64,000 bases of DNA from contig NZ_CP097128.1 of NCBI RefSeq assembly GCF_023330685.1, forward strand, positions 992,001 through 1,056,000, given 5' to 3'. The stretch comes from Conexibacter sp. DBS9H8. Its GTDB lineage: Bacteria > Actinomycetota > Thermoleophilia > Solirubrobacterales > Solirubrobacteraceae. This document shows, piece by piece, positions 14,594-28,060 of the stretch. The position numbers were made by a program, and so were the translations under genes. The notes under the pieces are model-generated. The model did not search any database. It saw nothing but the letters and a program-made list of their open reading frames with translations, and had not been told where the DNA came from. Position 1 is the stretch's first letter. Each line of letters starts with the position of its first letter.

Positions 14594-15784
14594 TCAGACC
14601 GGGTCACCGTTGGCGTGCCGATCGGGAACCTCGAGTGAATGGCTGTTGCATCCGAGCAGAACAATGGCCGCGGTCGCCCGTGTCAGTCGTGTCAACGTCA
14701 CAAGCTGTGCCTGCTCGACCCTGTGTGCGTCGCCCCGGGTACCCCCAACGTATTCCTCCAAGGCGTAGGTGAGTGCGGTGCCCTGGTGTTCCCATGCCCG
14801 GCGATGATCAAAGCACATGGGGCGACTCAGGAGTCGAGCCCCGCAGACGACGTTGATCGTGCCCTCGTGCAGGGCGATCCTGATGGAGCCAAAGGCCGGG
14901 TCGTGCGCCGGTCGACGGAGCCGCTGATCGAGCGCCTGCACGGCAGCGTACTCGTGGGCGGCCAGCGAAAGCCATGCCTCCCTGGCCGTGGCGAGATGGC
15001 TGGCGCTACGTTCGCCCGTGGGACGCGAGATGGACACAGCATCGAGCCGGCCCGGCGCCGTTTGCACGTCGAGCGCGGCTGCGAGGTGGTATGCGGTCAC
15101 GTCATTGCAGGGGTGCAAGCGCAGATCGAGCTTGCCCGCTCTCGTGGCGAGTTCAGCGGTGACGGAGTGGACGGCGGCGTCCAGGACGGCCGCTCTCGGC
15201 TCTGGCGCGTGAGCGTTCCCGGCACCGGCCACGTTGGATGTGGCGAGAAGTAACAGTGCCGCCACGTCGATGGCGCGCTCAGTGAGCGCCGCGGCGGTGT
15301 CATAGCTCAGAGGGTGTCCGGTGCCCGCCGACCCGAGCACGGCACGGAGGGACGCGGTGGCCTCCTTGCCGGCTTCAGTGGGGATGGCGTAGGTGAGTTC
15401 ACCGGCGAGGATCGATTCCTCATGCCGGGCGAGGCGCTCAGCCAACTGTTGGCCGAGCTGGGCCCGGCGATCGGTGCACGTGGTCCTGCGGGCGGTCAGT
15501 GGCGCCACCGCGAGGATGAGCTCGGCGCTCGCGTTCGCGCCCGCAGCGCTGAGTGCGTCGGCGTTCCCGGCATCCGCAGTTCCGAACGTACGGAGGAGGG
15601 TGTCAGAGGCTGCTGCGGCCGCATTGACTGCGGCCTGGAACATCGGGCCGGGTGCCTGCTCGGTCCGGCGCGCGGGCGCTTGGCGGACATCTGTGAGCAC
15701 GCGGTCGAGCGACTCACGCCAGATACCGTCGCATCCAGGCGCCGCTCCGGCATCGCCGAAGCGGAAGGTCACCGGCCGGTGCAC
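14594..15784 (-). CDS. Hypothetical protein downstream of pckG
   Basis: No family recognised. The reading frame remains open from within pckG to 14594. The part after the pckG stop, from GTG 15784 (VHRPVTFRFGD), gives 396 residues with codon third positions mostly G/C as expected of a real gene. It is Ala-rich and mainly helical, with conserved-looking segments LRLHPCNDVTAYHLAAALDV, LSLAAHEYAAVQALDQRL and MCFDHRRAWEHQGTALTYAL. There is no signal peptide or membrane segment. It follows pckG by about 20 bp and is probably cotranscribed. Two antisense frames overlap it, but their sequences look like shadows. Start uncertain; ATG within PGPMFQAAVN is an alternative. Confidence 0.5.
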   Translation of the reverse strand: MHRPVTFRFGDAGAAPGCDGIWRESLDRVLTDVRQAPARRTEQAPGPMFQAAVNAAAAASDTLLRTFGTADAGNADALSAAGANASAELILAVAPLTARRTTCTDRRAQLGQQLAERLARHEESILAGELTYAIPTEAGKEATASLRAVLGSAGTGHPLSYDTAAALTERAIDVAALLLLATSNVAGAGNAHAPEPRAAVLDAAVHSVTAELATRAGKLDLRLHPCNDVTAYHLAAALDVQTAPGRLDAVSISRPTGERSASHLATAREAWLSLAAHEYAAVQALDQRLRRPAHDPAFGSIRIALHEGTINVVCGARLLSRPMCFDHRRAWEHQGTALTYALEEYVGGTRGDAHRVEQAQLVTLTRLTRATAAIVLLGCNSHSLEVPDRHANGDPV

Positions 15785-15804
15785 CGAGACCTCGGGCGGC
15801 CGCT

Positions 15805-17634
15805 TCAGCGGCGCGTGAGCCGTCGCTCGAGCGCTTCGAGCGACTCCCCAAGCCGGGAAGGGAGGCGCGAGCCGAACTGAGCGAAGTGCTTGCGTATCAG
15901 CGGCACCTCCGTGCGCAGCTCGTCCTCGTCGACGGCCAGCGCCCGCCTGAGCGCGCCGGGAGCGAGTTTCAGGTCGGTCAGGTCGAGGTCCTCGGGCGTG
16001 GGGATCAGTCCGATGGGCGTCTCCTCCGCGTGGGCGAGTCCGTCGCAGCGGCGGAACACCCAAGCCAGGACGCGGGCGTTCTCCCCGTACCCGGGCCACA
16101 GGAACCGACCCTCGGGGTCCTTGCGAAACCAGTTGACCTGGAAGATCTTCGGGAGCTGTGCGTCCGTGCGTGAGCCGAGCGTGAGCCAGTGGTCGAAGTA
16201 GTCACCCATGTGATAGCCGCAGAACGGCAGCATCGCGAACGGATCAAAGCGAAGCTCCCCGACCGTTCCCGCGGCGGCGGCGGTCTTCTCCGAGCTCATC
16301 GTTGCGCCGAGAAAGACGCCATGGCACCAATCGAAAGCCTCACGTACCAAGGGAACGACGCCTGCTCGACGGCCCCCAAACAGGATCGCGTCGATCGGTA
16401 CGCCGGTGGGATCCTCCCACTCGGATGCGATCACCGGGCATCGGGCCGCCCCAACCGTGAAGCGTGCGTTCGGATGCGCCGCCGGCTTTCCGTCGGCCGG
16501 GCTCCAGTCATTTCCCTGCCAGTCGATGAGATGGTTCGGGATCTCGTCGGTCATGCCCTCCCACCACACGTCACCGTCATCTGTGAGCGCACAGTTGGTG
16601 AAGATCGTGTCCCGGTTGATGGCGGCCATGGCGTTTGGGTTGGTCTCGTATCCGGTCCCCGGCGCGACGCCGAAGAACCCGGTCTCGGGGTTGATCGCAT
16701 AGAGGCGACCATCTTCACCAAACGTCAGCCATGCGATGTCATCGCCGAGGGTCTCGACCTTCCAACCCTTGATGGTCGGGATCAACATCGCCAAGTTCGT
16801 CTTTCCGCACGCGGATGGGAACGCGGCAGCGATGTACTTGACCCCGCCCTCTGGCGAGGTGAGCTTGAGGATCAGCATGTGCTCGGCAAGCCACCCTTCA
16901 TCCCGGGCGATCACCGACGCGATCCTCAGGGCCAGACACTTCTTGCCGAGCAGCGCGTTGCCGCCGTAGCCCGACCCATAGGACCAGACCTCACGGGTCT
17001 CGGGGAAGTGAACGACATGGGTCTGTTCCGGATTGCAGGGCCAGGGCACGTCCACGACGCCGTCCCGGAGTGGGACGCCGACGGAGTGCACGCAAGGAAT
17101 GAAGCTCGCCTCGTCAGTGAGGGCGGCGAGCGCCGCGCTGCCCATGCGGGCCATGATGCGCATCGAGACGACGACGTAGGGGGAGTCGGTGAGCTGGACG
17201 CCGATGGAGCAGATGTCCGATCCGGCTGGGCCCATCATGAACGGGACGACATACATCGTCCGGCCGCGCATGGACCCCCGGAACAGCTCCATGAGCATCG
17301 GCCGCATCTGCTGCGGGTCACGCCAGTTGTTGGTTGGGCCCGCGTCCATCTGGCTGCGTGAGCAGATGAAGGTGCGATCCTCGATGCGGGCGACATCCCG
17401 CGGATCTGACCGCGCAAGATAGGAGTTCGGACGCCTGAGGTCGGCAAGGCGGGTGAACGTTCCGGCGTCGACGAGCTGTTGGCAGAGCCGGTCGTACTCC
17501 TGCTCGGAGCCGTCGCACCACTGGATCGCCGCCGCCTGCGTCCACTCGGCGGTCTCCTGCACCCAGGTGAGCAGCTGCACGTTCATGACCGGTGAGGCGA
17601 GCGCGTCTGTGCCGCTGGGGGTTGGGGGCGTCAT
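15805..17634 (-). CDS. pckG: Phosphoenolpyruvate carboxykinase (GTP)
   Basis: A 609-residue enzyme that converts oxaloacetate + GTP to PEP + CO2 + GDP, at the branch between the TCA cycle and gluconeogenesis, and can run in the carboxylating direction. The GTP-class P-loop with its reactive cysteine, [14 protein letters not shown] (about residues 270-283), and [17 protein letters not shown]-like [10 protein letters not shown] and [20 protein letters not shown] segments are all present. Start ATG 17634 has a perfect GAAAGGAG site. The 77-bp gap to the upstream hydrogenase gene contains the palindrome TCTTATAAGA, so pckG may have its own regulated promoter while lying in line with the hydrogenase operon. 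Confidence 0.95.
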
Positions 17635-17710: not shown

Positions 17711-18211
17711 TTAGTTGCGTCTGGGTGACAGCTGCGGGCCTGACCCCTCGGCCGGCCGGGGACGCTGGAGGGCTGCGGTGAGCGCCGCCGCGATCGCCGC
17801 GGGTGTCGGCGGGCAGCCGGGGATGCGCAGGTCGATCGGAAGGATCGTCTCGAGTGGACCGGCGAGCTCTGCCTGGGTACCGAGGAGGTTGCAGCCGAGG
17901 GCGCAGTCGCCGAGTGCGGCGACGACCCTCGGTTCGGGCATCGCGGCGTAGGCCGTGCGGAGCGGTCCGGCCATACGCGTGGTGATCGCGCCGGTGATCA
18001 GCAGCACGTCGGCGTGGCGCGGGGAGGCGACGATGTTCAGCCCGTATTGCTGAAGGTCGTAGAGCGGATTGGTGGCGGCGGTCAGTTCGTGTTCGCACCC
18101 GTTACAGGAGCCGGCGTCGACATGGCGAAGCGCAAGGGAGCCCCGCACACGCGACGATGCCGGGGCTGTGTCACGGCGGAGGAGACGAAGATGGTGGAGC
18201 AGTACGAACAC
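17711..18211 (-). CDS. hyfI: Group 4 [NiFe]-hydrogenase-like small subunit (HyfI/HycG/NuoB family)
   Basis: A 166-residue NuoB-family protein that would hold one 4Fe-4S cluster (N2 type) between the electron donor and the [NiFe] site. The Cys ligands are present: SCNGCEHEL, GDCALGCN and GCPP. The length is close to HycG/NuoB after their N-terminal extensions. The GTG start at 18211 follows the large-subunit TAA by two bases. It is the last gene of a six-gene operon; on the membrane complex it would sit at the interface with the HycD/NuoH-like subunit. Confidence 0.85.
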   Translation of the reverse strand: MFVLLHHLRLLRRDTAPASSRVRGSLALRHVDAGSCNGCEHELTAATNPLYDLQQYGLNIVASPRHADVLLITGAITTRMAGPLRTAYAAMPEPRVVAALGDCALGCNLLGTQAELAGPLETILPIDLRIPGCPPTPAAIAAALTAALQRPRPAEGSGPQLSPRRN

Positions 18212-18213
18212 GG

Positions 18214-19665
18214 TTATCGGTCTGCGCAGGCGTAACAGAGCTCAAAGCTCTTGTTGATGAGTGGGAAGTCGGGGAGCAGCTCGCCGGCCATCGTGTGCGC
18301 GAGGATGGGCCAGTTGGCGTAGGAGCCGGTGCGGAGGTGCAGCGCCGCCAGACGACCGCCGTCGTTCTCGATCACACACACCGTCTCCCCGCGCGGGCTC
18401 TCCACACGACCGATACCGATGGGGCTGACTGGACGAACGTGTTGCAGCCCGCCGTGGGCTGCGGGTTGGCAGAGCAGCTCGTCCAGAAGGTCGAACGATT
18501 GGCGAAGCTCAAGTGCGCGTTGGTTCATTCGCGCCGCCACGTCACCGGACGAGGTCGGCGCGACCGCCGCCGCAAATCCGTGGTACAGAAGGCGGGGGCT
18601 GTGGTGACGATGGTCGCGGTGCACGCCTGACGCACGCGCGACGGGACCGACCGCGCCGAGCCGCACCGCGTCGGCGGTCGAGAGTGTCGCGACGCCGTCA
18701 AGCCGGCGCTGGAGCGAGGTGACGAACCGCAGTTCCCGCCAGTAGGAGTCGTGCTCGTGACGGATTGTCGCCAGCTCGCGTCGCATGGCGGCCGCCTGAT
18801 CGCGGTCGAGGGTGACCGAGCCCGTGCCGAGCTTGACGGTGTCAAAGAGGAACCGGTGTCGAGTGAGACGATGATTGAGGCGCTGGACGCGTTCTTTGAG
18901 GGCGGCGTACGCCATGGTTCCGGGGGCGAAGCCGACTCCGGCGCAGATTGCGGAGACGTCATTGAGGTGGTTGTAGACGCGCTCGAGCTCGAGCAGAATG
19001 GTGCGCCCGCGGCGCACGTGCTCGTCGGGTTCGCACCCGAGCGCCGCCTCACAGGCATGAACGTAGGCGACGGTGTTGGCGACCGAGCAGGCGGCGCACA
19101 TCCGTTGCGCGTACGCGATCCCATCCTCGAGTGGCCGTCCGGTCGCCGCGGTCTCCAGGCCGCGGCGCTTGTAGAAGAGCCGCACGTCAAGGTGGAGGAT
19201 CCGCTCACCGACGACGTGGAAGCGGAAATGGCCGGACTCGATCACGCCCGCATGGACCGGGCCGACGGCGACCTGATGGACGTCCTGGCCGGACGTCGGC
19301 ACCGTCCAGGCTTCGAGCGCTTGTTGGTGGTCGAGGAGGGGACGAAGGGGCTCGTGCCCCGCGAAGTCGATCCCGTGCAGATCATGGGCCTCACGCTCGT
19401 CCCAGCCTGCGGCTGGAATGGCGTCCACGATTGTGTCGACCCCTCGCTCCGCGGCTTCGCAGGTGATCAGCTGCTCGCCGGCGGGTGTACTGAACAGGGC
19501 CCGAACCTGCACGGCTCCTGGAACGCGACGGCTGGCGAAGAGCCCACCGAACTGGCCGCCCTGGGCGTGCGCGTCAAGGCATGCCCGGCGCCAGGCTTGG
19601 GCCGGCACGCGTGTGATCTCGGGCGAACCCGGCACACCGACGGAAGGGCGACGCGGGGTGCTCAC
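18214..19665 (-). CDS. hyfG: Group 4 [NiFe]-hydrogenase-like large subunit (HyfG/HycE family, NuoC-NuoD fusion)
   Basis: A 483-residue fusion of a NuoC-like domain (about 1-125, WDEREAHDLHGIDFAGH) and a NuoD/hydrogenase large-subunit domain that begins GPVHAGVIESGHFRFH, nearly the HycE sequence. All four cysteines expected to bind the Ni-Fe centre are kept: Cys190 and Cys193 in QRMCAACS, Cys477 and Cys480 in FELCYACADR. The surrounding residues differ from the usual RVCGICG and DPCxxC forms. The protein stops three residues after the last Cys (C-A-D-R), so it lacks the C-terminal peptide that HycE-type precursors lose on maturation, as is also known for CooH and EchE. GTG start overlaps the hyfF stop. 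Substrate could be H+/H2, but catalysis is unproven. Confidence 0.88.
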   Translation of the reverse strand: MSTPRRPSVGVPGSPEITRVPAQAWRRACLDAHAQGGQFGGLFASRRVPGAVQVRALFSTPAGEQLITCEAAERGVDTIVDAIPAAGWDEREAHDLHGIDFAGHEPLRPLLDHQQALEAWTVPTSGQDVHQVAVGPVHAGVIESGHFRFHVVGERILHLDVRLFYKRRGLETAATGRPLEDGIAYAQRMCAACSVANTVAYVHACEAALGCEPDEHVRRGRTILLELERVYNHLNDVSAICAGVGFAPGTMAYAALKERVQRLNHRLTRHRFLFDTVKLGTGSVTLDRDQAAAMRRELATIRHEHDSYWRELRFVTSLQRRLDGVATLSTADAVRLGAVGPVARASGVHRDHRHHSPRLLYHGFAAAVAPTSSGDVAARMNQRALELRQSFDLLDELLCQPAAHGGLQHVRPVSPIGIGRVESPRGETVCVIENDGGRLAALHLRTGSYANWPILAHTMAGELLPDFPLINKSFELCYACADR

Positions 19666-21143
19666 GTGAGCCCGCCCATCAGCATGCGTACAGCCGGCGA
19701 TCCAGGCAGCAGGTAGGCGCAGGCCGATAATGCGAGCAGGCCAAATCCCATCGCCCAGGCGAGGCGCTCAACGGCACGGACGCTGCGTCCGCGCTGCCAT
19801 CGGTGGTGTTGCTCGCCGCCGAGCAGTCCCTCGATGAGCGCGTGGGCGAGCCCGAGGAAGCCGAGGGCGAGCAGAGCTGCGGCGAGGACCGCGACAACGA
19901 GGTGCCCGCCGGCGATCCCGCCGGCCAGGATGAGCAGTTCGCTGAAGAACAGGGGTGAGGGGGGTAATCCGCTGAGCGCTCCAAGGCTGACTCCGATGGC
20001 CGTCGCGGTGCCGGTGCTGAGCCTCGCGATCCCTCGCGGGGGATGCTCACCGGCCTCGGCCTGATGCTGCAGCAGGGGAATCGCGGCGTAGAAGCCAAGT
20101 GCCTTGGCGAGTGCGTGCCCAGCCAGGTGCAGCACGACGCCGGCGGTCGCCAGCGGGTTGGCGAACCCGATACCGAGTGCCAGCACCCCCATGTGCTCGA
20201 GGCTCGAGTAGGCCAGCAGCCGCTTCCAGGGAAGTGGCCGCCACAGGAACGGGACGGCGATCGACAGCGACGCCAGCCCGAAGCCCATCAGGATCGCGTC
20301 CCCGACCCCGGGATGTAACGCAGGACCGAGCGTGACCAGGACTCGCCAGGCGACGAGGATCACGGTCGGCAGCAGCGCCCCGGACAGCATCGCGCTGATC
20401 GGTGGGGGTGACTCGCTGTGCGCATCGGGAAGCCAGTTGTGGACCGGGGCCCAGCCGATCTTCGTCGCCAGGCCGCCGATGATCAACAGGAACGCCAGCA
20501 GCGCGGCATGCCGGGAGAGCGAGCTGCGATGACGCGCGATGGACTGCCAGTCCAGCGTTCCGAGGACACCACCGTGCGGTGCCAAGCCGACGTACAGCAC
20601 GAAGATCCCGGTCAGCGCGACGGTCAGACCGAAGGTCGTCAGTACGAGGTACTTCCATCCCGCCTCCAGGGCTGAACGTCGGCCGCTGTAGGCGACCAGC
20701 AGCGCGGAGGCACCGGTGGTCGCCTCCACCAGCAGCCACGCGACGGCGAGGTTGTCAACCAGTGGGACCGCGAGCAGCGCGGCCCAAAACAGGTGGAACC
20801 CCAGGTAGTACCAAGTTCGTGCCCGGGAGGAGGCGAACAAGCTGTGCTGCGTGCCGGTCAGGTACCCGGGGGAGACCAGGGCGCTGAGCACTCCGATGAC
20901 CGCGACCACGGCGAGGAAGGCGCCGCTGGCACCGTCGAGGACGTACCACGTCCCGCGTATCGGATCGGCGCTGTGGGTGAAGGCCACGATGGCAAGCAGG
21001 CTCGCGGCGGTTGCGGTGACCAGTGCGCCGAGCAGGTGGATGCGGTCCGCGCCTCGCGGGGTGCGCGCGAACTGGATGAGCAGTCCGCAGGCCACCGGCA
21101 GCGCCGGAACGGCGATGACGAGTCCCTCAGTCACGGAGGTCAC
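19662..21143 (-). CDS. hyfF: Hydrogenase-4-type antiporter-like membrane subunit (HyfF family)
   Basis: About 493 residues and at least 13 hydrophobic helices. The Mrp/NuoLMN-type proton-translocation segment is recognisable: WAPVHNWLPDAHSESPPPISAMLSG, then LLAYSSLEHMGVLALGIG and HLAGHALAKALGFYAAIPLL. The subunit would couple electron transfer to H+ or Na+ movement. The open frame reaches 21398, but upstream residues are non-hydrophobic and antisense-like. GTG 21143 (or 21134), overlapping the end of hyfE, is the better start. The stop overlaps the hyfG start. Confidence 0.85.
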   Translation of the reverse strand: MTSVTEGLVIAVPALPVACGLLIQFARTPRGADRIHLLGALVTATAASLLAIVAFTHSADPIRGTWYVLDGASGAFLAVVAVIGVLSALVSPGYLTGTQHSLFASSRARTWYYLGFHLFWAALLAVPLVDNLAVAWLLVEATTGASALLVAYSGRRSALEAGWKYLVLTTFGLTVALTGIFVLYVGLAPHGGVLGTLDWQSIARHRSSLSRHAALLAFLLIIGGLATKIGWAPVHNWLPDAHSESPPPISAMLSGALLPTVILVAWRVLVTLGPALHPGVGDAILMGFGLASLSIAVPFLWRPLPWKRLLAYSSLEHMGVLALGIGFANPLATAGVVLHLAGHALAKALGFYAAIPLLQHQAEAGEHPPRGIARLSTGTATAIGVSLGALSGLPPSPLFFSELLILAGGIAGGHLVVAVLAAALLALGFLGLAHALIEGLLGGEQHHRWQRGRSVRAVERLAWAMGFGLLALSACAYLLPGSPAVRMLMGGLT

Positions 21144-21744
21144 CCAGCAGGGAGGTGTCCCCGGTCCCGAACTCCTCGTGGATCTTTGCGCTGAAGGCGC
21201 CGGCGACGGATACGACGACGACGAGGTCGAACACCAGTCCGAGTTCGATGAACACCGGGAAACCCTTGGGGGCGGCGAGCGCGGCAAGATAGATCCCGTT
21301 CTCGACAACCAGAAAGCCAAGGGCTTGAAACACGGCGGGGCGGCGCACGACGGCGATCGCGATCCCGAGTGCGACAAGCCCGACGGCGGTGTGCTCAACG
21401 GCCACCTGCGCCAAACCGATGTCGGGCATGAGCGCGACGACCGCCAGCGCGACCGCCAGCGCGACCGTCAGCCGTGCCAAGGGGTGACGCTCGGACGCCA
21501 TCCGTCCTGGCTCGCGGGTGCGGGAGACGACGGCTGCGAGGAGCGCCGGGAGGGCGATGGCCTTGGCGACCAGAACGATGCCGGCGACCAGCAGCACAGT
21601 TGACGCTCCCGCGGCCTGTGAGATCGCCTGCGCGCCGAGCACCAACGATTGCAGTCCGACGAGCGCGATCGCGACGGAGCGGCGCCGTACGACGACGACA
21701 CCGAGCGCACTGAGCCCGACGATCCAGATCACGGCGTGGCTCAC
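21127..21744 (-). CDS. hyfE: Hydrogenase-4-type small membrane subunit (HyfE family)
   Basis: About 205 residues with six or seven hydrophobic helices, starting at GTG 21744 (VSHAVIWIVGLSALG), which overlaps the hyfC stop (GTGA). HyfE proteins combine a NuoK-like part: compare VVRRPAVFQALGFLVVENGIYL with a Glu in the membrane (VVENG), and FDLVVVVSVAGAFSAKIHEEFG near the end. This buried Glu belongs to the proton pathway in complex I relatives. The longer frame to 21786 would add 14 polar residues inside hyfC. Confidence 0.85.
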   Translation of the reverse strand: MSHAVIWIVGLSALGVVVVRRRSVAIALVGLQSLVLGAQAISQAAGASTVLLVAGIVLVAKAIALPALLAAVVSRTREPGRMASERHPLARLTVALAVALAVVALMPDIGLAQVAVEHTAVGLVALGIAIAVVRRPAVFQALGFLVVENGIYLAALAAPKGFPVFIELGLVFDLVVVVSVAGAFSAKIHEEFGTGDTSLLGDLRD

Positions 21745-22670
21745 ACCCCACCGCCCGCGAACCAGCTCGCCAAACCGAGCAGGCACACCACTGCGCCTCC
21801 ACCCAATAACAACGGAACCTGCAGGATCCGCATCTTCGCCTGGGTTGTCTCAGTGAGTGCCAGCAGCACGCACCACAGTGGGAGCGCCACCGTCAGCAGT
21901 CCCAACCGCGCCAGGAAGGGGCCTGGCTGGGGGAGGAACAGCTCCGTTGCGAGGGCCACCATGATCCAGTGCCGTGCTGCGGACGCCCACTGCAGGAACG
22001 CGAGTTCACGCCCGGCGTACTCAAGCAACGGGCCCTCGTGCACCATCGTGAGCTCGAGATGGGTGTCGGGGTTGTCGATCGGTTGGCGGCCAGTCTCCGC
22101 CAGGAGCACGAGGAGAAATCCGAGCAGTGCCGCCCAGTGAGCCGGCTGGCCCCAGACGCCGGAGCGAGTCGCGGCGAGGCTCAGTGCGACGAGGCTGGTG
22201 CTGTGAACGGGCATTGCCACGAGCACCACCGCCAGGAGCATGACCCCTTCCGCCGGGACGGTGAAGGTGAGGTCGCGGCTCGCTCCCATCAGCCCGAACC
22301 CGCCGCCCGTGTCCCAGGCGGCGAGCGTGATGGCGAACCGGCTGAGCGCGAGCAGCCCGACGAGCACCAGTGCGTCGTGCCCCACCGGCCAGTCCGGTGA
22401 TCGAGCTCCGATCGGCACGAGCACGAGAGCCACCAGCAGCGAAGCGGTGACGAGCGACGGTGCCAGCTCATAGACCACGGTTCGTGGACGGGGCGACACG
22501 CCGCTCTTGTGCCACAGTCGCCGCAACTCGCGGTAGGGCTGTAGCGGGGAGGGGCCCGGGCGACCCTGCAGACGCGCCTTGATCTGTTGGGTCAGGCCGG
22601 GGATCATCGGGGCGAGAAGGATGCCGCCAAGCACTTGGATGACTCCGGCGGCCGCACGGTCGGCGGTCAC
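21741..22670 (-). CDS. hyfC: Hydrogenase-4-type membrane anchor subunit (HyfC/HycD/NuoH family)
   Basis: A 309-residue membrane protein with about eight helices, related to NuoH/HycD, which docks the small and large subunits on the membrane. Family landmarks include LLAPMIPGLTQQIKARLQGR, QPYRELRRLWHK, ETGRQPIDNPDTHLELTMVH (the conserved acidic loop facing the small subunit) and EYAGRELAFLQWASA. GTG start overlaps the hyfB stop. Its neighbours and order (B-C-E-F-G-I) match hydrogenase-4 and M. tuberculosis Rv0083-Rv0087. Confidence 0.9.
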   Translation of the reverse strand: MTADRAAAGVIQVLGGILLAPMIPGLTQQIKARLQGRPGPSPLQPYRELRRLWHKSGVSPRPRTVVYELAPSLVTASLLVALVLVPIGARSPDWPVGHDALVLVGLLALSRFAITLAAWDTGGGFGLMGASRDLTFTVPAEGVMLLAVVLVAMPVHSTSLVALSLAATRSGVWGQPAHWAALLGFLLVLLAETGRQPIDNPDTHLELTMVHEGPLLEYAGRELAFLQWASAARHWIMVALATELFLPQPGPFLARLGLLTVALPLWCVLLALTETTQAKMRILQVPLLLGGGAVVCLLGLASWFAGGGV

Positions 22671-24628
22671 GTGAGAACTCCCAGTTGCACGAGCGCCAGC
22701 AGCACCATCAGGAGTCCCAGGAGATAGACCAGATACGTTCGCAGACTCCCGGACTGCAACCGCCGGATGCGCCCGGCCATCCTCAGCGCTGCGGTCGTGA
22801 CCGGCTCGTAGATCAGCGAGTCGAACAGATGGGGAACGTCAGCCTCATACCGTAACTCCTGGATGACTCCTGATTCGGAGTGGACGATCGTCAGGTCACG
22901 GGTAGGACGCAGCACGTTCTCCAGCAGGATCCTCAGTGGCTTTGTGAATCCCGCGGACGTCCAGGCGAGAGCCGGCACGGTCGCCTGCCCGCACGTCCAT
23001 GCTGGTGTGGGCTCGGCGCGCCCGTTGCGACTGGAGCGCCAGAGGGTGACGGTGAGCAGCGTGAGCGCCAATGCGAGCGGCAGGGCGGGAAGGCCCCCGG
23101 TCCCGGGGAGATCGACTCCCGCGTGAACCGAAAGCAACCCCGTGTGATGGTGGAGCCGCTCGAGGGTCGGCACCAGCACGCCGGGGATGATGCCGAGCAG
23201 CAGACACAGCGACGCGAGCAGGACCAGCGGCCACCGCATTCCGACGCCCGCTTCACGAGCGGCGTCAGCCCGTGTCGTTCGTGGTGGCCCGAGCAGGACG
23301 AGACCGATCACCTTGACGAAGCAGAACACGGCGAGCGCGGCGGTGGCGCCCAGTGCCGCTGCGGACGCGGCGGCCACGAGTGAGACGCCGAACCTGCCGA
23401 AGAGCGAAAGGTGAAGCAGGGACTGCAGGATCATCCACTCTGAGATGAACCCGTTGAGCGGCGGGACACCCGCGATCGCCGCCGCGCCGACCATGAATGC
23501 CGCACCGGTCCACGGCATCCTGCGCAGCAGGCCACCGAGCCCGTCCAAACCCAGACCGCCGACTTGGGCGGCGAACGACCCGGCTCCGAGAAACAACAGC
23601 GCCTTGAAGATCGCGTGGTTGAGCACGTGTAGGAGCGCCGCAGCAAACGCGATCGCGCTCCATTGTGGTCGACCGATCGCCGCGAAAACCAACGACGCGC
23701 CCAATCCCAGCAGAATGATTCCCACGTTCTCAATCGAACTGAACGCGAGCAAGCGCTTGAGTTCATTCTGAAAGAGCGCATACAGCACTCCGCCCAGCGC
23801 TGACAGCACCCCAAGGCCCAACAGTGTCAATCCCACCCACAGGGGCGTCGGTCCGTCCCATTCAAACAGCACACGAATCAGGCCGTACAGCGCAACTTTG
23901 ATCATCACTCCCGACATCAGCCCCGAGATCTGCGCCGGGGCAAGGGGATGCGCGCGCGGGAGCCAGGAATGCAGCGGAACCGCGCCGGCCTTGGTGCAGA
24001 AGCCGATGATTGCCGCGATGGCAACGAGGCCGCGCAGACCATCGCCGTGAAGGGGAACACCAGCGAGCGCGCCGTGATCGGCCAGCACGAGCATGCTCAC
24101 CCACACGCCGACCCCACCGAGATGGGTGATCGCCAGATAGGCGAAGACGTCTCTGCGCGCCGGCTCGTCGTGACGGCCGATCAGGATGAGTGCGGCAGGG
24201 AGCAGCGTCATCAACTCCCAGAATCCGAGGAAGGTCGTGACATCCCGCGCCATCACCAGGCCGACCAGCGAGAGACAGAACGCGCCGGTCAACGCCGCCG
24301 TCATCCGAGCGCCCGCCGTCATCCGCGCGCCGGGAGTGTCGGCCAGTGCGCCACGCGCCCACCCGAGGGCTGGGACGGCGACGACCCCGAGGATGAACAG
24401 GAAGAAACCACTCAGACGATCGATCCCGAACGCTGGAGAAAACCCACGGCCGAATTGCGCACCGACTGCAGCCGCACCAAACAGGACCGCTGCCCCGGCC
24501 GCTCCGATCATCGCCATCCCCAACGCCTCCAGCAGGAGCGCCCAGCGCGTCCTGCCTGCCAGGCTCCCGACGAGACCGCAGGCCACCAACACCGCCCCGG
24601 CGGCACACAGGGTCGCTGGAGGGCTCAC
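22667..24628 (-). CDS. hyfB: Hydrogenase-4-type antiporter-like membrane subunit (HyfB family)
   Basis: A 653-residue protein with about 16 hydrophobic helices, the first gene of the hyf-like operon. Antiporter landmarks are TTFLGFWELMTLLPAALIL with the membrane Glu, KAGAVPLHSWLPRAHPLAPA, SGVMIKVALYGLIRV, LLAFSSIENVGIILLGLG and LHVLNHAIFKALLFLGAG. The loop after helix 14 holds TPAWTCGQ, a hallmark of the HyfB/HycC branch. GTG start at 24628. A leader of about 125 nt separates it from a predicted promoter at the arsR intergenic region. Confidence 0.9.
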   Translation of the reverse strand: MSPPATLCAAGAVLVACGLVGSLAGRTRWALLLEALGMAMIGAAGAAVLFGAAAVGAQFGRGFSPAFGIDRLSGFFLFILGVVAVPALGWARGALADTPGARMTAGARMTAALTGAFCLSLVGLVMARDVTTFLGFWELMTLLPAALILIGRHDEPARRDVFAYLAITHLGGVGVWVSMLVLADHGALAGVPLHGDGLRGLVAIAAIIGFCTKAGAVPLHSWLPRAHPLAPAQISGLMSGVMIKVALYGLIRVLFEWDGPTPLWVGLTLLGLGVLSALGGVLYALFQNELKRLLAFSSIENVGIILLGLGASLVFAAIGRPQWSAIAFAAALLHVLNHAIFKALLFLGAGSFAAQVGGLGLDGLGGLLRRMPWTGAAFMVGAAAIAGVPPLNGFISEWMILQSLLHLSLFGRFGVSLVAAASAAALGATAALAVFCFVKVIGLVLLGPPRTTRADAAREAGVGMRWPLVLLASLCLLLGIIPGVLVPTLERLHHHTGLLSVHAGVDLPGTGGLPALPLALALTLLTVTLWRSSRNGRAEPTPAWTCGQATVPALAWTSAGFTKPLRILLENVLRPTRDLTIVHSESGVIQELRYEADVPHLFDSLIYEPVTTAALRMAGRIRRLQSGSLRTYLVYLLGLLMVLLALVQLGVLT

Positions 24629-24758
24629 CTGCGGTGTGCCCCAGGCGTCGGCGCACTCGGCGGCGCGACGGGCGGCGCCGAGTGTTGCGCGTCACTGGTG
24701 GCGGGAGCGTCGCCAGCCCGGTGATCACGTTCAGGATGCGCGTCGAACACTGGTGGGA

Positions 24759-24783
24759 ATAGTATCTAAGAAACTTAGAAGTT
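24759..24783. promoter_or_regulatory. Overlapping palindromes and -10 element between arsR and the hyf operon
   Basis: TCTAAG-AAA-CTTAGA (24765-24779, 6-bp arms) and AACTT-AG-AAGTT (24772-24783, 5-bp arms) overlap in an AT-rich patch in the 261-bp divergent gap. On the minus strand a -10-like TACTAT (24759-24764) abuts them; a plus-strand TATGAT (24791-24796) lies just beyond. Binding of the ArsR protein here would cover the hyf promoter and probably its own. Confidence 0.5.
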
Positions 24784-24889
24784 AATGAGATATGATGCGA
24801 TGCTGGTCCTGGGTCGACCGGGGGCGAGCTCGGGTGAGCCCCCAGTTCGCTGCAGTAGAGTCGGACCACTTGGCACGTCGGATCCACCT

Positions 24890-25300
24890 ATGTCAAAACC
24901 ACGCCCGTCCGCTCATCCTCCAACCGCTGCCGTTGAATCCGTGCGCGGGCACGCGCACGTCCGGTCGGACCCGGTTTACGTCGCCAAGGCTCAGCTCTTT
25001 CGGGTTCTCGGCCATCCTGTCCGGGTGAGGATTCTGGAGCTGCTGGTCGACGGCGAACGTTCGGTCGGAGACCTCCAGGTCCGGCTGGACCTCGACTCCA
25101 GCGGCACCTCCCAGCACCTGGCGGCGCTCCGTCAGCTTGGGATCTTGGAAAGCCGTCGGGAGGGTACGAGCACCTATTACCGGCTCAAGGATCCACGTGT
25201 CTCGCAGCTTCTCGCGGTCGCGAAGCAGATCCTCGCGTCGGTGCTCTCAGACTCCCAGGCTCTTCTCGGGGATCTGACCCAGCCGCCAGCGGCGCCGTAG
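24890..25300 (+). CDS. ArsR/SmtB-family transcriptional regulator (Rv0081-like)
   Basis: A 136-residue winged-helix protein: AQLFRVLGHPVRVRILELL, then RSVGDLQVRLDLDSSGTSQHLAALRQLGILESRREGTSTYYRL, the ArsR recognition helix and wing. No CxC or other metal-site motif of ArsR/SmtB sensors is visible, so the signal may not be a metal. It is divergent from the hyf-like operon, exactly where M. tuberculosis has Rv0081, an ArsR-type hypoxia regulator next to hydrogenase-like genes Rv0082-Rv0087. The frame opens at ATG 24785, but the candidate -10 at 24791 favours ATG 24890. Unlike typical members it has about 35 residues before the first helix. Confidence 0.85.
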   Translation: MSKPRPSAHPPTAAVESVRGHAHVRSDPVYVAKAQLFRVLGHPVRVRILELLVDGERSVGDLQVRLDLDSSGTSQHLAALRQLGILESRREGTSTYYRLKDPRVSQLLAVAKQILASVLSDSQALLGDLTQPPAAP

Positions 25301-25593: not shown

Positions 25594-27066
25594 TCAGCTC
25601 GGGCTGGGCGGCGTGGGCGCGGTCCAGGGGGACGTCGGTGCTGGCGGTGGGGGCGTCGACGTTGAGCCGGGGGTGTGGTGGGGACTGCCGCCCTGGCGGG
25701 GGATCGGCTCGGGTGCGGTGGAGATCGTCGCGAGCAGCCGCCAGACCGAACGCAGCAGCCGAGCGGGGGTGAACGCGTCCGGCTCGGTGATCGCCAAGCG
25801 GCCGATCTCCTCCCCGATCGTCAACAGCATCCGGGCGATCGCCTCAACCTGATGGCCCGGGGTGTCCGGTGCATCGGCGTAGATGACGTAGCCGACGAGC
25901 GGTTCGATCCGCTTGGCGAGCGCGGCGCGGCGGCGGTTGACGATCCGCTGCAGGATCCGCGGCGCATTCTCGGGTCGCAGCAGGGCCAGCCGCCAGGTGA
26001 GCGGATACGCGCAGGCGGCGCTGAGGAGACGATGGACGGAGTCAAAGAGGACCTCGTCAGCGGCATACCCGCCCGGATCCTGGGGGATCAGCCCGGCCAG
26101 GGTCGCCCGGACCCGCTGATCCTCGCGGTGCATCAGCGCGGTGATCAGCACTCCGAGGTTGGCGAAGCTGCGGTAGATGACCACGCGGTTGACCTCGGCC
26201 CGGCGGGCGATCGCCTCCATCGTCAGGGCGCCGAACCCCTCCTCGGCGACGAGCACGAGGGCGACGTTGAGCAGCTGCTCGCGCCGTTCGGCCTGGGGGA
26301 CCCGGCGGCGCGGGTCCGGGGCGCAGAAGCGTGCGCTCAGCTCCTCCATCCGGGCCGGCGGGGCGATCTCCGGACGCGGCGGCGGCGTGTCGGCGCGTGC
26401 GGTCGCCGGCGTCGGCGGGATCACCGCGAGCAGGTCGATGGTCGCGGCGGCGAGCCGGTCGGGGCTGAACCGGCGCGGGTGGGCGAGCATCAGCCGGGCC
26501 GCGTCCTCACCGATGGCGACCAACAGCCGGGCGGTGAGCTCGTGATCGAGCCCGCGCGGGCCGCCGCGGGCGGGGAGCCCCCAGTCCAGCAGCGCCCGGA
26601 TCCGGCCGGCCAGCTCCCCCCGGCCGCGTTGGAGCCGGAAGTTCAGCTCGGCCGAGTTCCCGGGCGGGGGCATCAGCACGAGCCGCCAGGAGCTCGGATC
26701 CTCCCGGACGGCGGCGAGGAACGCGTTGATCGTGTCGATCAAGAAGCGGTCGGGGCTCGGGTCGCTCGGCACCCCGTCCCCGAGGATCGCCGCGAGCTGG
26801 CCGGTCACCCGCCGGTCCGCACGCTCGATCAGGGCGAGCAGCAGCGAGCCGAGATCGCCGAAGGTGTCGTAGATGACCGGGCGGGTGACGCCGGCGGCCT
26901 GGGCGATCGCCTCGACGGTGATGTGGGAGAAACCGGCCTCCGCCAGGACCGCCATCGTCGCGTCGAGCAGCTGCTCGCGCCGGTTCTCCGGGGCCAGCCG
27001 CGGGGTCCGGGAAGTGCTGTTGGCCGCCACAGCGGGCAGACTCGCAGACCCCGCGGCGCTTTGCAT
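25594..27066 (-). CDS. Tandem TetR regulator: two complete TetR units in one chain
   Basis: About 490 residues with two TetR/AcrR units. Unit 1 has an HTH at about 30-80 (RREQLLDATMAVLAEAGFSH ... GVTRPVIYDTFGDLGSLL) and its own ligand-binding helices ending in FSPDRLAAATIDLLA. A Pro/Ala-rich linker follows, then unit 2 with an HTH at about 258-305 (RREQLLNVALVLVAEEGFGA ... EVNRVVIYRSFANLGVLI) and a second regulatory domain ending FTPARLLRSVWRLLA. The two units are clearly homologous. The C-terminal 40 residues are Pro/Thr/Ser-rich. Start ATG 27066 (MQSAAGSASL) or 27114. It is divergent from otsB. Usual TetR proteins are 190-220 residues and dimerise. Confidence 0.88.
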   Translation of the reverse strand: MQSAAGSASLPAVAANSTSRTPRLAPENRREQLLDATMAVLAEAGFSHITVEAIAQAAGVTRPVIYDTFGDLGSLLLALIERADRRVTGQLAAILGDGVPSDPSPDRFLIDTINAFLAAVREDPSSWRLVLMPPPGNSAELNFRLQRGRGELAGRIRALLDWGLPARGGPRGLDHELTARLLVAIGEDAARLMLAHPRRFSPDRLAAATIDLLAVIPPTPATARADTPPPRPEIAPPARMEELSARFCAPDPRRRVPQAERREQLLNVALVLVAEEGFGALTMEAIARRAEVNRVVIYRSFANLGVLITALMHREDQRVRATLAGLIPQDPGGYAADEVLFDSVHRLLSAACAYPLTWRLALLRPENAPRILQRIVNRRRAALAKRIEPLVGYVIYADAPDTPGHQVEAIARMLLTIGEEIGRLAITEPDAFTPARLLRSVWRLLATISTAPEPIPRQGGSPHHTPGSTSTPPPPAPTSPWTAPTPPSPS

Positions 27067-27223
27067 CCCCGCCGGACCCCGGTCCGACCCCCTGCCGGTC
27101 CGCTCGCGCCCCATGTCCACACGGTCCGGACGTCGAACCCGCTGCGGCACGCGCGGCCGGCCGCCGCGGCAAGCGCGGCTGCACCCGCCCACCCGGAACC
27201 GGGGCCGCGCCATACTTGGTGAC

Positions 27224-28060
27224 ATGGCGATCGACGGATCCACCCGCGGCCTCAGCGCCCCCGACGAGGTGACCGCCGCCCTCGCGGTCTTCCGCGAGAA
27301 CCCGGCGAGCGTCGCGGTGCTGCTCGACATCGACGGGACGCTCGCCCCGATCGTCGACCTCGCCTCCGAGGCGACCGTCCCGGAGATCACCCGGCAACTG
27401 CTGATGCGCGCCTCCCGCCGCTACCGGGCCGTCGCCTGCGTGAGTGGCCGGCGCGCCTCCGAGTCCCGGGCGATGGTCGGGGTCGGGATCATCACCTACA
27501 TCGGCAGCCACGGCGCGGAGCTGCTCGAGCCGGGCTGGACCGAGGCGGTCCTCGACCCCGCCCTCGAGGGATGGGCGGACCGGATCGCCCGTTTCCGCCG
27601 TGACAGCGACACCGCGGAGCTGCGCCGCGCCCGGGTGCGGATCGAGGACAAGGGGCCGATCGTCGCCTTCCACTGGCGCGGCGCCGACGATGAGATGACC
27701 GCCCGGGAGGCCGTCGACGCGCTCGCCGCGCACGCCGCCGCGGACGGGCTGGAGATCCACTGGGGTCGCAAGGTGATGGAGGTCCGTCCGCCGGTGCGGA
27801 TCGACAAGGGCGCCGGGGTTCGGGCGCTCGTGGCCCGCAGCGGCGTCACCCGCGCCCTGTACGCCGGCGACGACGTCACCGACCTCGACGCCTTCACCGC
27901 TCTGCGCGCCCTCCGCCGCGACGGGGTCCTCCAGCACTGCCTGTGCGTCGGGGTCGCCTCCGAGGACGGTCCGGCCGCGATCCGTGAGGAGGCCGACGTC
28001 GTCGTCGACGGAACCTCGGGAATGCTCGACGTGCTCGCGGCGCTCACCGCCGGTGAGTGA
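27224..28060 (+). CDS. otsB: Trehalose-6-phosphate phosphatase
   Basis: A 278-residue HAD-superfamily phosphatase. Motif I LLDIDGTLAPIVD carries nucleophile Asp35 and Asp37; CVSGRRASESRAMVG, IGSHGAELLE, DKGAGVRAL and the motif IV segment LYAGDDVTDLDAF are typical of OtsB. It removes phosphate from trehalose 6-phosphate, the last step of trehalose synthesis by the OtsA-OtsB route; no otsA lies in the window. ATG 27224 begins about 160 bp from the divergent tandem TetR gene, which could regulate it. The downstream membrane-protein gene starts 21 bp after the stop. Confidence 0.88.
   Translation: MAIDGSTRGLSAPDEVTAALAVFRENPASVAVLLDIDGTLAPIVDLASEATVPEITRQLLMRASRRYRAVACVSGRRASESRAMVGVGIITYIGSHGAELLEPGWTEAVLDPALEGWADRIARFRRDSDTAELRRARVRIEDKGPIVAFHWRGADDEMTAREAVDALAAHAAADGLEIHWGRKVMEVRPPVRIDKGAGVRALVARSGVTRALYAGDDVTDLDAFTALRALRRDGVLQHCLCVGVASEDGPAAIREEADVVVDGTSGMLDVLAALTAGE

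Follow-up and report, generated by a model that had tools for sequence, protein, structure and literature searches.

The complexes of the Ehr group are described as lacking the residues that coordinate nickel and iron (PMC6349859). In Mycobacterium tuberculosis, the hyc locus Rv0082–Rv0087 is described as six genes annotated as a possible formate hydrogenlyase, with Rv0081 as the regulator (PMC6901956). The MBS complex of Pyrococcus furiosus is presented as a case in which a former hydrogenase pocket was turned to other chemistry (PMC7684303). Here, we analyse a six-gene operon of Conexibacter sp. DBS9H8, which encodes a membrane-bound member of the hydrogenase-4/complex I superfamily. The operon is located in a 64-kb stretch (contig NZ_CP097128.1, positions 992,001 to 1,056,000; hereafter the window) of a single-contig genome of 3.64 Mb. 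The genes are arranged on the minus strand in the order HyfB, C, E, F, G, and I types; they overlap or abut, and an ArsR-family gene lies divergently upstream. This arrangement had been reported in a preliminary description of the window and was confirmed here by open reading frames (ORFs) and profile matches. The Hyf names are given by similarity, the NCBIfam scores of all six subunits being below the curated cut-offs. We consider it likely that this HyfBCEFGI complex is a redox-driven pump, not a hydrogenase.

The complex is a variant of the Ehr/complex I superfamily, in which Ehr relatives without metal ligands are already known (PMC6349859). Like Ehr complexes, it combines an antiporter-like membrane arm with a hydrogenase-like soluble arm that would have no hydrogenase function, and its HyfG groups with cysteine-less members. 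It differs from them in that all four ligand cysteines are present in HyfG; the most variable of these, C193, is kept in 62 of the 68 aligned sequences of its clade (type A, see below). Rv0081–Rv0087 resembles the window operon, from its description, as a six-gene hyc locus under a regulator (PMC6901956). MBS differs, by its published description, in the cluster motif and in the pattern of ligand loss; HyfI of the window does not have the shortened motif (PMC7684303). With regard to complex I, both an NADH module and NuoI are absent from the operon, and the positions of the quinone-headgroup His and Tyr are changed.

Several differences separate the operon from hyf and hyc of Escherichia coli: the HyfA, D, H, and J genes are absent; HyfG has no tail after the L2 motif; its L1 and DPC motifs are altered; and it is placed outside the HycE/HyfG branch (two E. 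coli sequences) by a 100/100 split. Unlike in formate hydrogenlyase and hydrogenase-4, no linked HycF/HyfH, HycB/HyfA, or formate dehydrogenase gene was found in the window. None of the 868 reading frames (≥40 amino acids) of the window contained a CxxCxxCxxxC motif or matched E. coli HycB, HycF, HycH, HycI, or HypA–E (E 1e-3), and all matches of the genome to HypD, HypF, and TIGR01591 (formate dehydrogenase) are located outside it. The absence of HycF/HycB, Hyp, maturation protease, and formate dehydrogenase genes from these 64 kb, as stated in the preliminary description, is thereby confirmed. TIGR01591 gave 15 matches genome-wide, the best of which (577 bits) is below the curated cut-off of 666.

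The HyfG pocket, its relatives, and the Hyp genes

Comparison of HyfG with E. coli HycE and P. furiosus MbhL revealed that the four ligand cysteines are retained in altered surroundings: CAACSVAN versus CGICxxxH in L1 and ELCYACADR versus DPCxxCTDR in L2. The signatures published for group 4 [NiFe] hydrogenases are C[GS][ILV]C[AGNS]xxH for L1 and [DE][PL]Cx[AGST]Cx[DE][RL] for L2 (PMC7886697). The L1 segment of the window HyfG fails the pattern as quoted in that source. The protein terminates at the L2 motif (CYACADR) without a C-terminal extension and thus has no tail for removal by a protease.

An alignment of type A HyfG sequences was reduced from 91 to 67 rows by dropping those with identical ends and, together with the window, comprised 68. 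C190 is a cysteine in all 68 rows, and so are C477 and C480 in all 62 rows that extend to both positions. The second L1 cysteine, C193, which we take to be the ligand bridging nickel and iron, is lost in six of the 68 rows (Asp in five, Gly in one), with at least three changes on the tree. A further cysteine, C430, is present in 61 of the 65 rows reaching this position, the other four having Ala; all six rows without C193 possess it. HyfG is unlikely to be a [NiFe] hydrogenase.

The scan for HyfG relatives gave 357, of which 80 were kept. The diagnostic columns were taken out of the alignments before trees were built; the groups are called A, B, C, X, and 4g-like by names coined in the present analysis. 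Type A formed a single clade (support 100/100). Types A and B grouped together (96/96); type B is not one clade, and a draft of Bacillota (L121) is sister to type A. Types A and B, together with groups X and C, from which the nickel- and iron-ligand cysteines are absent, were separated from E. coli HycE/HyfG, MbhL, the 4g-like group, and NuoD at 100/100. A constraint uniting A, B, and X to the exclusion of C could not be rejected (p-AU 0.087). A position of HyfG inside formate hydrogenlyases, which the preliminary description had named as an argument against its own interpretation, was not recovered, since HyfG fell outside the two E. coli sequences. The nearest relatives of HyfG include that of Conexibacter sp. 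S30A1. Only 12 of 396 genomes spread over the phylum matched HyfG at E 1e-60 or better, and two of these 12 matches were cysteine-less; the complex is therefore uncommon.

A plasmid of Rhodococcus (Mycobacteriales, the order to which the Rv locus belongs) carries the same six subunit types in the order I-B-C-E-F-G. This set differs from the window operon in having the HyfI-type gene first instead of last, in having no ArsR gene annotated directly beside it, and in a HyfG without any of the four ligands; the cluster cysteines of its HyfI are kept. In M. tuberculosis, the I-type gene is presumably also the first of Rv0082–Rv0087, and Rv0081 is, we assume, a member of the ArsR family. The occurrence of the same six-part make-up with the cysteines (type A) and without them (Rhodococcus) argues that it is not nickel and iron that the machine needs. 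Cysteine-less relatives with NKSFNLSY-type ends (L156, L157, L164, L186, L187, L188, and L189; NKSMNLSY in L156) occur in several phyla, some of them on plasmids of Rhodococcus and Cupriavidus.

The genes for HypA, B, C, D, E, and F and a maturation protease are clustered at 97–112 kb of the contig (C1), about 900 kb from the complex. The preliminary statement that hyp genes are missing thus holds for the 64 kb and not for the genome. The large subunit encoded beside this set has the motifs TSRICGICGDNH (L1) and SFDPCLPCGVH (L2), both of which correspond to those quoted for group 1h/5 hydrogenases (PMC10080006). Since a group 1h-type hydrogenase adjoins the hyp set, the latter has another, obvious client. 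Besides this hydrogenase, the complete hyp set, and the protease, the region C1:97001–117000 (L035) also encodes a NifU/Rieske-domain protein.

Among 201 relatives tested, HypD was found in 12 of the 31 that have a type A complex (at least 51% identity to that of the window) versus 58 of the 170 without it (Fisher p 0.68). A survey of HypD, HypF, and PF00374 covered 79 genomes (61 with type A, 18 with type B) out of an initial list of 85. HypD and HypF were each detected in 30 of the 79 genomes, in near-identical sets (G217 had HypD only and G219 only a fragment of HypF); in type A genomes, each was present in 19 and not found in 42 of 61. Within type A, HypD occurred in 18 of 22 genomes with a second PF00374 hydrogenase versus one of 39 without (p 1e-10), a second hydrogenase being defined by E < 1e-10, a cut-off picked after the table had been seen. 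Within type B, HypD was present in all 11 genomes with another hydrogenase and in none of the seven without; here, the second hydrogenase was judged by position, the complex being the only PF00374 match in six genomes, and G240 having one further unlisted match. Among the five type A genomes known to consist of a single contig, HypD is absent from G012, G083, and G323 and present in G000 and G084, both of which also have a second hydrogenase. Of five further type A genomes of 95–99% completeness, including G323, one contained HypD. Thus, hyp genes do exist elsewhere in the genome, which the preliminary description had considered a possible refutation, yet the Hyp genes follow the second hydrogenase and not the HyfBCEFGI complex. 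This indicates that the type A family, as a family, is not dependent on Hyp maturation.

Conservation in the other subunits was counted after leaving out type A sequences of ≤80% of the median length, so that 53–60 of 63 loci were kept. The predicted cluster ligands of HyfI (C36, C39, C103, and C133, with CxxC spacing of the hydrogenase type) are retained in, respectively, 59, 59, 58, and 59 of the 59 aligned relatives. Residues of the membrane arm are invariant: E138, K213, K291, H338, K342, and E397 of HyfB (53/53); E192, D199, E206, E212, and E217 of HyfC (55/55); and K223, K302, E311, H338, and K342 of HyfF (60/60; numbering from residue 91 of the mechanical ORF).

Proposed function and competing explanations

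The failure of the L1 motif, the missing tie to Hyp genes, the cysteine-less neighbours in the tree, and the conservation of the pump residues and of the HyfI cluster together argue for a pump without hydrogen chemistry. The earlier suggestion of an ion pump that is redox-driven and has ceased to produce hydrogen is therefore well supported. In the proposed mechanism, HyfI would be the direct docking site of a soluble donor of low potential, probably a ferredoxin, whose gene would lie elsewhere. Electrons from this donor would cross the single [4Fe-4S] cluster of HyfI to an acceptor in the former nickel–iron pocket of HyfG, and this redox reaction would drive ions out through HyfB, HyfC, and HyfF. 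Menaquinone is our guess for the acceptor, and a tentative one. The steps that involve donor and acceptor are weaker than the pump interpretation itself.

A number of observations weigh against this interpretation. The window HyfG has all four ligand cysteines, and its L2 segment satisfies the pattern quoted in PMC7886697. The Pfam profile NiFeSe_Hases matches with 28.0 bits (cut-off 25.8), over profile positions 1–67 only. E143, R425, and H233, which belong to the proton path in hydrogenases, are retained, and E143 is conserved in 68 of 68 type A rows. The quinone-headgroup His and Tyr of complex I are described as H38 and Y87 of Nqo4 (PMC7684303). The corresponding columns of the window HyfG contain Ile142, adjacent to Glu143, and Ala191, which weakens the menaquinone step. 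In the AlphaFold model, the L2 region (residues 468–483) has a predicted local distance difference test (pLDDT) score of about 40, which makes the pocket geometry unreliable. The Hyp test is uninformative for the window genome and for G084, as both carry HypD. Most of the genomes tested are drafts, and the four of 22 type A genomes that have a second hydrogenase and lack a HypD match show the miss rate. Finally, neither a donor nor an acceptor was found, recurrent neighbours within 8 kb at 64 loci giving only ArsR. N232 and N197 were also considered as a complex I-like site, and this idea was dropped: rows of bacterial NuoD have Ser at the former position and Asn, His, or Met at the latter.

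The alternative that survives best assumes that the cysteine-rich pocket is occupied by a metal site of another kind, assembled independently of Hyp proteins; this site, for instance a mononuclear metal or an extra iron–sulfur cluster, would be catalytic or extend the electron wire. The invariance of C190, C477, and C480 fits this explanation, as do the fourth position, which is Cys or, in five rows, Asp (Gly in one), and the new C430, present in every row without C193. Cysteine-less relatives with the same six subunit types do exist, however, and the four-cysteine pattern may be mere inheritance; moreover, C430 is replaced by Ala in four rows and C193 by Gly in one. We consider this alternative rather unlikely. 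Its broader form, in which the whole clade of ‘SFELCYxC’ large subunits (types A and B) would hold a Hyp-independent site in the old nickel–iron pocket, composed of three invariant cysteines and usually Cys or Asp as the fourth ligand, is equally doubtful. Such large subunits occur in Actinomycetota, Bacillota, Chloroflexota, Nitrospirota, and others.

That the complex reduces sulfur or disulfides at its proximal cluster, in the manner of P. furiosus MBS, is improbable. MBS, which belongs to the same superfamily, is described as a one-time hydrogenase with two of the four ligands lost, but it needs a shortened Cys motif with an open iron (PMC7684303). HyfI has CxxC spacing and four ligands, and the glutamate lost in MBS (MbhL E21) is retained as E143 in all 68 rows. 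Sulfur reduction of this kind was rejected because the cluster motif of HyfI is unfit for it.

A working group 4 [NiFe] hydrogenase could rely on Hyp proteins borrowed from the group 1h-type hydrogenase, as the presence of a hyp set elsewhere in the genome, the four cysteines, the L2 fit, and the Pfam match just above the cut-off would allow. Against it stand the lack of a HypD match in 42 of 61 type A genomes and of a HypF match in 42 of 61, the four of five further genomes without a HypD match, the failing L1 motif with loss of its second cysteine in six of 68 rows, and the tree position. Judged mainly from the co-occurrence tests, this explanation is very unlikely.

The least probable explanation is a redox-inactive cation/proton antiporter with a relic soluble arm: Mrp antiporter models of NCBIfam also match the membrane subunits and no donor gene recurs nearby, but unused HyfI ligands would drift, whereas they are kept in 58–59 of 59 relatives.

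Operon structure, regulator, and neighbouring genes

The HyfG–HyfI gap is 0–45 bp at all 60 type A loci measured versus 315–448 bp at 16 of 19 type B loci; these lengths are rough values, since a HyfI match may start within the frame. Matches to E. coli HycF were found at 15 of the 19 type B loci versus none of the 66 type A loci, some of which have short flanks. A ferredoxin motif was located inside the G–I interval at ten of the 19 type B loci. Three of the 19 (L116, L121, and L123) combine a short gap with no HycF match; in the G–I interval of the remaining 16, 15 show a HycF match and L133 a ferredoxin motif. The short gap and the lack of HycF matches suggest that the ferredoxin-like HyfH subunit was most likely lost in type A. 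Frames with a CxxCxxCxxxC motif were detected at only three of the 66 type A loci (L069, L072, and L081). That of L069 (436 amino acids) looks like a real iron–sulfur protein, while that of L081, inside the operon, looks spurious.

Neighbouring frames of at least 110 amino acids within 8 kb were clustered by blastp (>80 bits). ArsR was the sole recurring neighbour (47 of 64 loci), and the next family occurred at six of 64. A linked donor gene was rejected, as no family besides ArsR exceeded this number under these settings. The unlinked electron donor suggested in the preliminary description fits this picture, though no donor was identified. By direct search, an ArsR relative adjoins the operon at 48 of 66 type A loci, divergently in five; of the 18 loci without it, 14 have less than 300 bp of upstream sequence.

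The divergent ArsR probably controls the operon. Its true start is probably inside the ORF, given that the first 27 residues correspond to gaps in at least 42 of 49 aligned rows (the window included); this count is indicative only, the rows of relatives being trimmed near the match. A metal-sensing ArsR was rejected, as there is no conserved cysteine: any cysteine occurs in only 12 of 49 rows, and that of the window lies in the doubtful N-terminal stretch. A conserved operator was rejected as well, since TAAGN2-4CTTA was found within 300 bp upstream of ArsR at one of 48 relatives' loci.

Coordinates of all features are given in the table below; the Pfam matches (Proton_antipo_M for both HyfB and HyfF) all exceed the curated cut-offs. 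The mechanical ORF of HyfF is too long, and a GTG at about 21134 or 21143 is probably its real start.

Features of the HyfBCEFGI locus in the 64-kb window (positions counted from the first nucleotide of the window)
Feature	Coordinates	Strand	Evidence and remarks
PEPCK (GTP), co-directional, 76 bp downstream of HyfI	15805..17634	-	NF003253, 973 bits (cut-off 504); a neighbour of the complex
HyfI/NuoB-type small subunit, one predicted [4Fe-4S] site (C36, C39, C103, C133)	17711..18211	-	PF01058 (Oxidored_q6), E 4.7e-27
HyfG-type large subunit with fused NuoC-like domain, 483 aa	18214..19665	-	Complex1_49kDa, Complex1_30kDa and, weakly, NiFeSe_Hases, all above Pfam curated cut-offs
L2 segment of HyfG, residues 475–483 ELCYACADR, replacing DPCxxC	18217..18243	-	Alignment
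Cys430 of HyfG, at the position of the E. coli HycE His after the PRG motif	18376..18378	-	Alignment
L1 segment of HyfG, residues 190–197 CAACSVAN; Cys pair kept, His to Asn	19075..19098	-	Motif comparison
HyfF-type antiporter-like subunit (mechanical ORF)	19662..21398	-	PF00361, E 4e-34; NCBIfam NF005044, E 7.8e-69 from residue 101
HyfE-type small membrane subunit, 219 aa	21127..21786	-	No Pfam match; best NCBIfam match NF008556 (hydrogenase-4 membrane subunit), E 7.2e-15, 55 bits (cut-off 136)
HyfC/NuoH-type membrane anchor with E-channel acids, 309 aa	21741..22670	-	PF00146 (NADHdh), E 4.8e-39
HyfB-type antiporter-like proton-pump subunit, 653 aa	22667..24628	-	PF00361 (Proton_antipo_M), E 3.5e-39; NCBIfam NF005086, E 1.6e-148, 496 bits (cut-off 667)
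AT-rich palindrome TCTAAGAAACTTAGA, candidate operator	24765..24779	.	Only TAAGN2-4CTTA in 64 kb
Divergent ArsR-family regulator (HTH_5)	24785..25300	+	NF033788, 86 bits (cut-off 55)

Among the loci scanned, a match to phosphoenolpyruvate carboxykinase (PEPCK) near the operon was detected only in Patulibacter (L068). The hyc locus is reported to have been acquired horizontally in several Actinobacteria and, in Nocardioides, to be flanked by part of pckA (PMC3087520). The PEPCK neighbours of the window and Patulibacter operons echo this flank, and PEPCK may mark a recurrent insertion site.

An ORF of 501 amino acids at 14594–16099 overlaps the end of the PEPCK gene and has no Pfam or NCBIfam match. 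On the other side of the operon, the ORF at 25594–27390 gave two matches to the TetR DNA-binding domain. A viral search gave no match. Elsewhere in the genome, at C1:1164001–1184000 (L178), NuoH-, L-, M-, and N-like genes are located beside a protein of 491 amino acids that matches part of NuoD and contains a His/Asp/Gly-rich stretch; the PF00346 search revealed no full NuoD elsewhere in the window genome. In the relative G012, by contrast, NuoB-, C-, D-, I-, and L-like matches lie together within a single stretch.

Implications for the annotation of group 4 hydrogenases

In the open-access full-text literature searched, no statement was found of a clade that keeps the cysteines, matches L2, and is independent of Hyp genes. 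Because either ‘EL’ or ‘DP’ satisfies the published L2 signature, such proteins can pass the L2 filter for group 4 [NiFe] hydrogenases (PMC7886697). The window HyfG also passes the Pfam cut-off for NiFeSe_Hases, and similar gene sets, including one in M. tuberculosis, carry hydrogenase labels. If the clade is Hyp-independent, some members of the group 4 class may carry a wrong label, and H2 production in soil actinobacteria may be predicted wrongly. Should the pocket hold the Hyp-independent site discussed above, complexes taken for [NiFe] hydrogenases would contain a catalytic or electron-relay centre that has gone unrecognised. If the pump interpretation is true, the complex would be a redox-driven ion pump of unusually small size, with one iron–sulfur cluster, and intermediate between hydrogenases and complex I.

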